Shown piece after piece: positions 33,783-38,532 of a DNA stretch of 64,000 nt. Positions within the stretch are counted from its first letter, which is position 1, and each line of letters begins with the position of its first letter. This stretch comes from Actinomycetospora termitidis (GTDB lineage Bacteria > Actinomycetota > Actinomycetes > Mycobacteriales > Pseudonocardiaceae). The stretch spans positions 248,001 to 312,000 of the forward strand of contig NZ_JASVWF010000008.1 of the NCBI RefSeq assembly GCF_030286555.1, read 5' to 3'. A model generated the notes under the pieces. It was given only the letters and a program-made list of their open reading frames with translations, made no database searches and was not told the origin of the DNA. Made by a program: the position numbers and the translations under genes.

Positions 33783-35729
33783 ATGCGTGCACCGCGCCAC
33801 GTCCGTCTGACCACCCCGCTCGTCCGCGACGAGCGCGGGGAGCTGCGTGAGGCCTCCTGGTCCGAGGCCCTCGACCGGGCCGCGGCCGGGTTCCGGGGCG
33901 TGCCGGGCGACGCCTACGGGATGTTCTCCTGCTCCAAGGCGACCAACGAGATGAACTTCGTGGCACAGAAGTTCGCGCGGGTGGTGATGGGGTCCAACAA
34001 CGTGGACTCCTGCAACCGCACTTGACACGCTCCCAGCGTCGTCGGTCTGACGGCAGTGTTCGGCGCCGGTGGTGGCACCAGCGCCTACCAGGAGGTCGAG
34101 GACACCGACCTCGTCCTCCTGTGGGGCTCCAACGCGCGTGAGACCCACCCGATCTACTTCCACCACGTCCTGCAGGGCCTGCGGAAGGGCGCCCAGCTCT
34201 ACGTCGTCGACCCGCGGCGGACCACCACGGCCCGCTGGGCGCGGGGCCACCTCCCGCTCGACGTCGGCACCGACATCGCGCTCGCGCACGCCATGGGCCG
34301 CGTGATCCTCGACGCCGGGCTGGAGAACCGCGCCTTCATCGAGCGCGCGACCACCGGGTTCGACGAGTACGTGCGCGCCGTCGAGCCGTGGACCCTCGAG
34401 CGGGCCCAGCAGGTCACCGGGGTCGACGCCGGCCTGATCCGCGAGACCGCCCTCGCCTACGCCCGCGCCGACCGCGCCCAGCTGTGCTGGACCCTCGGCA
34501 TCACCGAGCACCACAACGCCGTCGACAACGTCCGCGCCCTGATCGACCTCGCCCTGCTCACCGGGCACGTGGGCCGCTGGGGATCGGGCCTGGTGCCGCT
34601 GCGCGGGCAGAACAACGTGCAGGGCGGCGGCGACATGGGCGCCATCCCGAACAAGCTGCCCGGTGGCTACGACGTGGCCGACGACGAGCACCGGGGCCGC
34701 TTCGAGCGCGCCTGGGGCTCCACGGTGCCCGCCGTCAAGGGCCTGCACCTCTCGCAGATGTTCGAGGCGATGGAGCGCCGCGAGGTCCGCGCGGTGTACG
34801 TCGTCGGCGAGAACCCGGCCGAGTCCGAGGCCGACGTCGCGCACGCCCGCGCGCTGCTGACCGGCCTCGACCACCTCGTCGTCCAGGACATCTTCCGGAC
34901 GGCGACCGCGGAGCTCGCCGACGTCGTCCTGCCCTCCTGCGCGGACTGGTGCGAGTACGAGGGCACGGTCACCTCGTCGGAGCGGCGGGTGCAGCGGGTG
35001 CGCAAGGCCCTGGACCCGCCCGGCGAGGCGCGCCCGGACACGTGGATCCTCCACGAGATGGCCCGGCGCCTCGGGCACGACTGGGGGCAGCCGTCGGCCG
35101 AGGAGGTCTGGGACGAGCTGCGGTCGCTGTCCCTGGACTGGCACGCGGGGATGTCCTACGCGCGGCTGGAGGCCGAGGGCGGGCTGCAGTGGCCGTGCCC
35201 CGGGCTCGACCATCCCGGCACCCCGACGATGCACACCCGCCTCTGGGAGCGCGACCCGGCGCTGCGCGGCGCCCCGGCCCCGTTCGCGCCGGTGGAGCAC
35301 GCCGGACCGCTCGACGAGCTGTCCGCCGAGTTCCCGCTGCGCCTGACCACGGTGCGCCGCCTGGACTCCTACAACTCCGGCGTCCAGACCGGCGGCTACG
35401 CCTCCCCGCTGCGCCGCGACGAGGCCCTGTGCGTCGACCCGGCGGACGCGGAGGCGCTCGGCATCCGGGACGGCGAGCGGGTCCGGATGGTCTCGCGCCG
35501 CGGGGCGGTCGAGGCCCCGGTCCGCTTCGACCCCGCGGCCCGGCCGGGCCTGGCGTTCATCACCCCACACTTCTCGGAGCAGGTCGACGTCAACCTGATC
35601 ACCAACGAGGCATGGGACCCGCAGTCCGGGACCTCGGAGTTCAAGGCGACGGCGATCCGCATCGAGAAGCTCGACGTCGGCAGCCGGACCGCGGCGGCCG
35701 AGACCCGCGTCCCGGTCGCCGGTTCCTAG
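33783..35729 (+). CDS. fdhF: Formate dehydrogenase catalytic subunit with in-frame selenocysteine (TGA at 34023)
   Basis: Molybdopterin enzyme oxidising formate to CO2. Read through the TGA at 34023-34025 the frame gives 648 residues, with codon 81 in the order CNRT-U-HAPSVVGL, the exact place of selenocysteine 140 in E. coli FdhF (RVU-HGPSVAGL), and the next His is the conserved proton-relay residue. Downstream motifs continue without break: GLVPLRGQNNVQGGGDMGA, WCEYEGTVTSSER and the C-terminal MGD-binding SEQVDVNLITNEAWDP. A candidate SECIS hairpin follows the TGA. Oddly, the gene starts at the RAPRHVRLTTPLVRD linker and lacks the N-terminal [4Fe-4S] module, which is encoded at the end of the third gene (37582-38532). 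GGGAG precedes the ATG. The alternative, a broken gene, is less likely because the residues after TGA are intact and in frame. Confidence 0.9.
34023..34054 (+). promoter_or_regulatory. Candidate bacterial SECIS element
   Basis: After the TGA (34023-34025) and a 12-base gap, a stem at 34038-34043 pairs with 34049-34054 (six pairs, one G-T) around the five-base loop GGTCT, the same loop as in the E. coli fdhF SECIS as I recall it. It lies within the coding frame, as bacterial SECIS elements do. Confidence 0.7.
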
Positions 35730-35740
35730 GAGGTCTTCGC

Positions 35741-37585: not shown

Positions 37586-38532
37586 CGACCGTCGACCTCG
37601 GCACGATCCGGCGGCTGGTCAGCGTCACCGTCGACGACGTCGAACACCGCGTCCCCGAGGGCGCGACGATCATGGACGTCCTGGACTCCGCCGGCGCGGA
37701 CACGCCCCGGCTCTGCCAGGCGCCGAACCTCACCCCGGTGAACGCCTGCCGCGTGTGCGTCGTCGAGGTGGAGGGTTCACGCCCGCTCGTGCCGTCCTGC
37801 GCCCGCCGCGTCGAGGACGGGATGGTGGTGCGGACGGACACCGACCGCGTCGCGCACAGCCGGAGGATGGTGCTCGAGCTGCTGGGCTCGGCCAACGACA
37901 TGTCCCAGGCCGGGGACGACGTCGCGCGCTGGTCGATCGAGTACGGCGCCGACCCGGAGCGCTACGGCCCGGTCGGGCCGCCGGCCGCCGCAGGCGAGCG
38001 CGGCAACCGGCACGCGGGCCACCACAGCGCGCCGGACGGCGAGACCCGGGCGACGGTCGCGCAGCCGGTCACCGTCGACAACGACCTCTACGTACGCGAC
38101 TACGCCCGCTGCATCCTCTGCTACAAGTGCGTCGAGGCGTGCGGGACGGACGCCCAGAACACCTTCGCGATCGCGGTCGCCGGGCGCGGGTTCGACGCCA
38201 CGATCTCCACCGAGTTCGCCGTCCCGCTGCCCGACTCGGCGTGCGTGTACTGCGGCAACTGCATCGGGGTCTGCCCGACGGGCGCGCTGAAGTCGGTGGC
38301 CGAGCACGAGCGGCGCGAGGCCGGGGTGTGGGACCCCGAGGGCGAGACGGTGACCTCGACGATCTGCTCGTTCTGCGGCGTCGGCTGCACACTGGAGCTG
38401 CACGTCCAGGACAACACGATCGTCAACGTGACCTCGCCGCACGACCACTCGGTGACCCACGGGCACCTGTGCATCAAGGGGCGGTTCGGGTTCCAGCACG
38501 TGCAGAACGTGGCTCCGCCGCGCGATCGTTGA
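37582..38532 (+). CDS. Formate dehydrogenase iron-sulfur subunit carrying the displaced N-terminal [4Fe-4S] module
   Basis: A 316-residue protein. It begins with a [2Fe-2S] ferredoxin domain (LCQAPNLTPVNACRVC at about 44-59, PSC at about 73). The His-ligated cluster usually next in NuoG/FdsA is missing: the region reads LGSANDMSQAGDD. Two [4Fe-4S] motifs follow (CILCYKCVEAC at about 177, CVYCGNCIGVC at about 220). It ends with CSFCGVGC at about 260 and LCIKGRFGFQ at about 295, the module that normally opens the molybdenum subunit. The GTG overlaps the previous stop by 4 bases. So FdsA is split, with its two halves in swapped order. Confidence 0.92.
   Translation: MTTVDLGTIRRLVSVTVDDVEHRVPEGATIMDVLDSAGADTPRLCQAPNLTPVNACRVCVVEVEGSRPLVPSCARRVEDGMVVRTDTDRVAHSRRMVLELLGSANDMSQAGDDVARWSIEYGADPERYGPVGPPAAAGERGNRHAGHHSAPDGETRATVAQPVTVDNDLYVRDYARCILCYKCVEACGTDAQNTFAIAVAGRGFDATISTEFAVPLPDSACVYCGNCIGVCPTGALKSVAEHERREAGVWDPEGETVTSTICSFCGVGCTLELHVQDNTIVNVTSPHDHSVTHGHLCIKGRFGFQHVQNVAPPRDR

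Follow-up and report, generated by a model that had tools for sequence, protein, structure and literature searches.

A three-gene formate dehydrogenase operon of Actinomycetospora termitidis with the proximal [4Fe-4S] domain encoded by the third gene instead of the catalytic gene

We describe a three-gene formate dehydrogenase (FDH) operon in a stretch of 64,000 nucleotides from Actinomycetospora termitidis (contig NZ_JASVWF010000008.1, positions 248,001 to 312,000, forward strand), referred to here as the window, in whose numbering all positions are given. The catalytic gene lacks the N-terminal domain that binds the proximal [4Fe-4S] cluster, and this domain is found instead at the C-terminus of the third gene. 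Judging from the sequence, it is highly probable that the three products make up an NAD+-linked FDH with selenocysteine (Sec) and molybdenum (Mo) at its active site, and that the proximal cluster docks on the catalytic subunit in trans. For brevity, A denotes the catalytic core, EF the NuoE-NuoF fusion, U the HoxU/NuoG-like part and F the proximal [4Fe-4S] domain; genes 1, 2 and 3 encode A, EF and UF respectively. The features that define the split are the following.

33783 to 35729, + strand: gene 1, catalytic subunit A, 648 residues, a Mo-bis-molybdopterin guanine dinucleotide (Mo-bis-MGD) core without the N-terminal [4Fe-4S] domain (Pfam, TIGR01591, FdsA alignment, AlphaFold2 (AF2)).
33741 to 33743, + strand: in-frame TAG closing the frame 5' of gene 1, with 13 codons between it and the ATG.
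37582 to 38532, + strand: gene 3, 316 residues, a HoxU/NuoG-like electron-transfer protein that ends in the FDH proximal-cluster domain (Pfam, TIGR01591, AF2).
38347 to 38508, + strand: the relocated Molybdop_Fe4S4 domain, gene 3 residues 256-309, with C262, C265, C269, C297 and K299 (Pfam, alignment).

In Pfam, gene 1 matches Molybdopterin and Molydop_binding and nothing else at E 0.001; there is no match to Molybdop_Fe4S4, and the protein begins in the linker (MRAPRHVRLTTPLVRD). The missing domain is found at residues 256-309 of gene 3, with 71.8 bits against a cut-off of 22.7. On TIGR01591, gene 3 residues 260-309 take positions 1-50 (51.2 bits) and gene 1 residues 7-627 take positions 52-672, and on Rhodobacter capsulatus FdsA, gene 3 residues 3-307 correspond to 12-303 and gene 1 residues 6-628 to 306-932. 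An earlier interpretation (the sequence-only reading) had proposed that the catalytic gene begins in the linker, that its missing module forms the C-terminus of the third gene, and that gene 3 followed by gene 1 would rebuild an FdsA-type subunit; because the two proteins tile exactly on both references, this reconstruction is correct at residue level. The [2Fe-2S], dicluster and proximal-cluster domains and the Mo core, which lie on one chain in FdsA-type enzymes, are all present here but spread over two chains. Catalytic subunits of such FDHs are said all to bind the proximal [4Fe-4S] cluster themselves (PMC7171172; here and below, papers are cited from their available text), whereas in this operon the domain sits on gene 3. 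The TIGR01591 score of gene 1 is 608.8 bits (from position 52), below the Fdh-alpha equivalog cut-off of 666.25.

The ligands of the relocated domain (C262, C265, C269 and C297) and its K299 are invariant in 35 aligned sequences, comprising 28 split rows, the window included, and 7 fused ones. Equally invariant in 35 aligned catalytic sequences are residues U81-H82 and R274-G275-Q276 of gene 1, where U is shown as C and the first pair reads U/C-H; a metal-ligand Cys or Sec followed by His, together with RGQ, is the active-site motif of class I FDHs (PMC8808070). The AF2 model of A alone has a predicted local distance difference test score of 89.1, with Foldseek query TM-scores of 0.92 to E. 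coli FdhF (1fdi) and 0.91 to 8j83, and A alone is predicted to be FdhF-like in fold. Model confidence for gene 3 (TM-score 0.73 to 7vw6) is weaker at the C-terminus, where block means fall through 75, 75, 64 and 52 from residue 281 on, a pattern that would fit a domain modelled without its usual neighbour.

The arrangement is conserved. A contig scan gave 80 loci. Among the best 40 of these (L052-L091), which reach 54% identity or more to gene 3 and were looked at individually, homologues with the same split share one layout: A-EF-UF on one strand in all 33 loci whose catalytic gene can be detected, the gene being truncated by the start of the contig in 3 of them. The remaining seven are four contigs that begin inside EF (L070, L071, L076, L078), a Chloroflexota locus taken up below (L061), and two Streptomyces loci (L090, L091) that keep UF with little or no EF. 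In these two genomes the best A matches reach 34% and 37% identity, so no close catalytic gene was found, and the loci appear to be decaying remnants. A contig end truncates another close match, L094, whose genome has A and EF on a different contig. The same order is seen in nine further same-genus loci spanning three genes (L274-L282). There, about 250-320 bp separate the EF and UF matches; in the four of these loci that were read (L274, L275, L278, L281), an open frame in this interval would lengthen UF at its N-terminus by some 80 residues rich in Gly and Pro.

Record titles assign the loci to Actinomycetota, Acidobacteriota, Planctomycetota, Gemmatimonadota, Bacillota, Pseudomonadota, Chloroflexota, Armatimonadota and one delta-proteobacterium, although the non-Actinomycetota loci are all metagenome bins, so bin contamination may inflate this range. 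In a phylum sample of 396 genomes, gene 3 is present in 41 and gene 1 in 40 (about 60% identity or more), both in 38, so that A and UF occur together in 38 of the 43 genomes having either (counts taken by eye from output lists). Within the genus, gene 3 is found in 17 of 18 genomes; the remaining genome, which is 59% complete, contains gene 1. Across the family, 73 of 297 genomes (again counted by eye) contain gene 1 at 62% identity or above, and split-type gene 3, the gene sought in that sample, occurs in at least 25 of 251 sampled Chloroflexota genomes. The 88 stretches of viral contigs that fitted a pattern include no confirmed relative. On plasmids, 73 records matched, each below 60% identity, and the annotated features among the 40 listed were mostly fdhF.

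One interpretation of such a locus is that an ordinary fused FdsA has been cut by frameshift, assembly error or pseudogenisation, leaving halves that merely look permuted; the source genome is a draft of 30 contigs, and permuted halves are unusual. We give this practically no credence. The same layout occurs in the 33 testable and nine same-genus loci, which come from independent genomes, the domain ligands are invariant, and a stop codon follows GFQHVQN(L/R) in two same-genus relatives (L262, L266). In ten same-genus members gene 3 seems to contain a TGA, which is compatible with that gene's own terminal stop, as read in one of them (L266). A usual module in frame upstream of 33783 would also have undone the split, but the frame contains no CxxCxxxC and is closed by the TAG at 33741-33743; among split A genes generally, the motif is present in an open upstream frame in 0 of 64 rows (63 distinct, the window counted twice; one row at a contig edge). 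Conserved order and motif-free upstream frames together rule out an assembly error, a frameshift or an upstream module. Of 156 near-complete A domains that were classified by domain calling, a set in which the window and four Chloroflexota loci appear twice, 64 are split, 55 fused U-F-A and 37 F-A, and no TGA was found between joined domains in this set.

Two sets of loci stand apart. In Chloroflexota L240 (8824-9621) and L244 (5999-6796), a U domain precedes a weak match to the F domain, and no A domain exceeds the threshold; these proteins are perhaps NuoG-like, or a separate case of U-F without A. In a fused-type FDH at L187 (G293:C52), U is in another frame than F-A, unlike in its near relatives, which is likely a frameshift or assembly slip.

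The remaining cofactor-binding parts of the operon are the following.

35741 to 37585, + strand: gene 2, a NuoE-NuoF fusion with thioredoxin-like [2Fe-2S], flavin mononucleotide (FMN)/NAD and C-terminal [4Fe-4S] domains (Pfam among other evidence).
37612 to 37842, + strand: gene 3 [2Fe-2S] domain, residues 11-87, with C45, C56, C59 and C73 (Pfam Fer2_4, alignment).
38098 to 38289, + strand: gene 3 ferredoxin-like 2x[4Fe-4S] domain, residues 173-236 (Pfam 4Fe-4S dicluster models, alignment).

Gene 3 starts within the stop of gene 2 (GTGA). The Pfam matches of gene 2 are 2Fe-2S_thioredx, Complex1_51K, SLBB and NADH_4Fe-4S, and the first, second and fourth of these supply the diaphorase with an FMN/NAD module that an FdsA-type enzyme has. 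In the R. capsulatus enzyme (RcFDH) the direct cofactor chain is A1-A2-A3-A5-B6, and cluster A4 (His117, Cys121, Cys124, Cys130) lies off this path at the dimer interface (PMC7171172). With clusters matched by alignment, the ligands of A1, A2, A3 and A5 all fall on gene 3 and are invariant in the 35 aligned sequences, and those of B6 fall on gene 2 (Pfam). As all ligand sets of the direct route are present, every step would exist with the gene 3 domain docked on the gene 1 protein. The His-Cys3 ligands of A4 are absent from the aligned stretch of gene 3, and the A4-linked dimer contact is consequently predicted to be lost.

The most probable scheme is that formate would be oxidised at the Sec-Mo-bis-MGD site in A, and that the electrons would leave to the proximal [4Fe-4S] cluster, carried not by A but by the C-terminal domain of UF, docked on A at the site usually taken by the N-terminal domain of FdhF or FdsA. 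They would then pass along UF, by way of its two ferredoxin-like [4Fe-4S] clusters and its [2Fe-2S] cluster, and finally through the [4Fe-4S] cluster and FMN of EF to NAD+. The enzyme would presumably use Mo and not tungsten, and be cytoplasmic.

Alternatively, the domain on UF could be a structural remnant, as N7 of Thermus thermophilus complex I is held to be, with A using another carrier and EF-UF serving another dehydrogenase. It is true that an A without an iron-sulphur domain needs some partner, the identification of UF as that partner being our proposal, and that in one bin A and EF-UF are not linked. We nevertheless think this improbable given the operon order and co-occurrence of the genes, and the invariance of the domain ligands and of the Lys beside the last Cys. 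Furthermore, A2 couples A1 to the chain in RcFDH, while N7 is disconnected in T. thermophilus complex I (PMC7171172), and the ligands of the bridging cluster equivalent to A2 are present here.

The assignment of Sec to the active site concerns two features within gene 1.

34023 to 34025, + strand: UGA, codon 81, read as Sec at the Mo-ligand position (NRT-U-HAPSV; frame reading, homologues).
34038 to 34054, + strand: selenocysteine insertion sequence (SECIS)-type hairpin, 12 nt past the UGA, with a 6-bp stem and a GGUCU loop (comparative set).

This is the single in-frame TGA and it stands at the active-site position, and gene 1 is therefore read as a selenoprotein of 648 residues; a table-11 open reading frame call leaves just a frame of 557 residues, starting past the active site. 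In split homologues the Mo-ligand position is UGA in 47 rows (the window counted twice) and Cys in 17, with Cys homologues in Streptomyces and Amycolatopsis among others, and GGTCTG follows the UGA at a fixed distance in 47 of 47 UGA rows compared with 0 of 17 Cys rows at the same place. Over 24 distinct sequences, 97.9% of the 144 cells of the stem are paired, and one pair of six has changed on both sides (C-G to G-C, in 4 of 24 sequences). Both the paired share and the covariation score exceed all 500 shuffles, although kinship alone can give this without structure, and one pair changed on both sides is common in shuffles too (265 of 500). In a control with the partners slid by +3, 82.6% of cells still pair and two pairs show two-sided change, against one in the proposed stem. 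The hairpin signal appeared in the comparative set only, and Rfam gives no SECIS match in 33700-38600. The genome encodes Sec machinery, with tRNA-Sec at 70.3 bits, SelB at 268.5 and SelA at 402.9, all above cut-off, as well as FdhD. Gene 1 in its genomic setting thus combines an in-frame UGA at a redox site, a SECIS-type hairpin and Sec machinery, as bacterial selenoproteins do. The genes for SelA, SelB and tRNA-Sec adjoin a second, FDH-N/O-like FDH with an in-frame TGA and an FDH-beta-like protein (L132, G000:C4:55000-74000), a cluster that resembles the FDH1 cluster of A. chiangmaiensis.

The phylogenetic trees bear on the origin of the operon. In the A tree (122 rows, quick method) the 45 split rows form one clade (100*), sister (100*) to 10 actinobacterial FdhF rows of one family (f19) in which the domain remains N-terminal and the UGA is present. 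In the U tree, which has 104 rows and was built by a careful method though its bootstrap had not fully settled, 42 split rows are monophyletic (100/100) and nested in a wider clade (100/99) that adds five Chloroflexota U with F on A and four Chloroflexota fused U-F-A; three rows labelled split (L240, L244, L245) fall outside the split family or are cut by a contig end. In the flavin-domain tree (71 rows, quick), 42 split rows (support 87) join three of the same Chloroflexota EF (99*), while the A partners of those Chloroflexota proteins fall elsewhere in the A tree. Because A groups with FdhF and genes 2 and 3 with Chloroflexota diaphorases, we read the operon as a hybrid and not as a broken FdsA: from the trees, we infer that an FdhF-like core lost its own domain and was combined with a Chloroflexota-type EF-U diaphorase whose U carries the domain. 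The sequence-only reading, which had the module moved, is borne out as to the split and the permuted order but not as to an origin out of FdsA, the core being FdhF-like and its partners Chloroflexota-like. A simple permutation, in which an FdsA-type U-F-A was cut between F and A and A moved upstream with one shared history throughout, is unlikely, though it is the alternative we take most seriously: fused Chloroflexota U-F-A proteins (of L235-L242) do share the clade of split U (100/99), yet the split core is sister to actinobacterial FdhF and lies far from Chloroflexota A and proteobacterial FdsA in the quick tree.

The hybrid reading can be set against characterised systems. In their available text, the authors of PMC7176365 describe for A. 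chiangmaiensis DSM 45062 an enzyme, FDH3, with subunits FdhA3, FdhB3 and FdhC3 of 640, 614 and 316 residues and Sec in the alpha subunit, which they propose to be cytoplasmic and NAD+-dependent. All three subunits were detected in one proteome, 2.2- to 3.1-fold up on 2-hydroxyisobutyrate compared with acetone. Formate removal there depends on selenite, in whose presence hardly any formate accumulated, an effect attributed by the authors to FDH1 and FDH3 jointly (PMC7176365). Subunit lengths, on which the comparison is based, agree or nearly agree, the proteins described here having 648, 614 and 316 residues, and SelA and SelB lie beside another, membrane-type FDH in that organism and beside the second FDH here. 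The operon type is thus very probably already in print as FDH3. The claim that the arrangement is undescribed apparently stands for the split itself and very probably falls for the operon type: the main text of PMC7176365 nowhere uses the terms "4Fe-4S" or "iron-sulfur", and no description of a split or missing domain was found in the literature searched (including PMC7176365, PMC7171172, PMC8808070 and PMC13397495), supplements lying outside this coverage.

The nearest solved architecture is MeFDH1 of Methylorubrum extorquens (PDB 7vw6, 8j83, 7e5z, 7xqw), which has the same domain set in two chains and ranks first both with the gene 3 profile (275.6 bits) and in the fold comparison with gene 1. 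Its beta subunit is matched by gene 2 from NuoE through NuoF (46-595), although 24 other distinct chains score higher, and gene 3 alone, without a profile, matches R. capsulatus FdsA (152 bits) above MeFDH1 (117.8 bits). As in gene 3, the aligned stretch of MeFDH1 has no Cys at the A4 position. Unlike here, its alpha subunit holds U, F and A in one chain and is annotated as tungsten-containing. We take its metal ligand to be Cys. The FdsABGD enzyme of R. capsulatus (PDB 6tg9; homologue 9wxb) has the same direct cofactor chain, and genes 3 and 1 tile its FdsA, but in the available descriptions its FdsA is a single chain beside separate FdsB and FdsG subunits, A4 is present and the ligand is Cys. 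FdhF (E. coli FDH-H and the actinobacterial sister clade, which has the UGA) shares the catalytic core but keeps the [4Fe-4S] domain at its own N-terminus. Archaeal FwdB/FwdD presumably offers a further case of a molybdopterin catalytic subunit over two chains, with the C-terminal part removed and not the N-terminal cluster domain.

Flanking the operon, a PAS-fold protein, a possible regulator, lies directly 5' on the same strand (32951-33700), and a TetR-family regulator and an MFS transporter lie directly 3' (38555-40633).

Several observations weigh against the picture of a Sec-containing hybrid with its proximal cluster in trans. Docking in trans is itself something we infer, and the identity with FDH3 rests on subunit lengths in the text available. 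In single-sequence folding, the hairpin does not stand out from shuffled controls (z 0.99), 165 of 200 of which fold equally well or better. Quick methods were used for the A and flavin-domain trees, and the domain tree (110 rows, 52 columns) places F neither with U nor with A; a p-AU of 0.312 does not reject a grouping of the split domains with those of f19. Five genomes of the phylum sample show one partner only, each of them below 90% complete, and in one Chloroflexota bin (L061) A lies on a different contig from EF-UF. This bin (L061/L197, G400) may be a natural case of unlinked subunits; its split A is situated 3' of a SelD C-terminal piece (TIGR00476 positions 186-309, 98.8 bits).

The split arrangement is conserved and real and lends itself to a functional reading, and the split itself is apparently undescribed in the literature covered. 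With some reservation, we favour the view that it marks a widespread, unrecognised class of NAD+-linked FDH that breaks the rule for Mo subunits, a chimera of an FdhF-type Sec core with a Chloroflexota-type diaphorase that would present the domain at the interface as a natural plug-in contact. The split also matters for annotation: the catalytic gene falls below the FDH equivalog cut-off, and its UGA shortens the called frame to 557 residues. Since the family departs from the own-cluster rule in many lineages, contact between Mo and the proximal cluster is apparently possible across a subunit interface. If so, the proximal cluster could be swapped, mutated or wired to an electrode with the catalytic chain untouched, which would bear on biocatalysis for CO2 reduction and on the recombination of complex I, hydrogenase and FDH modules.

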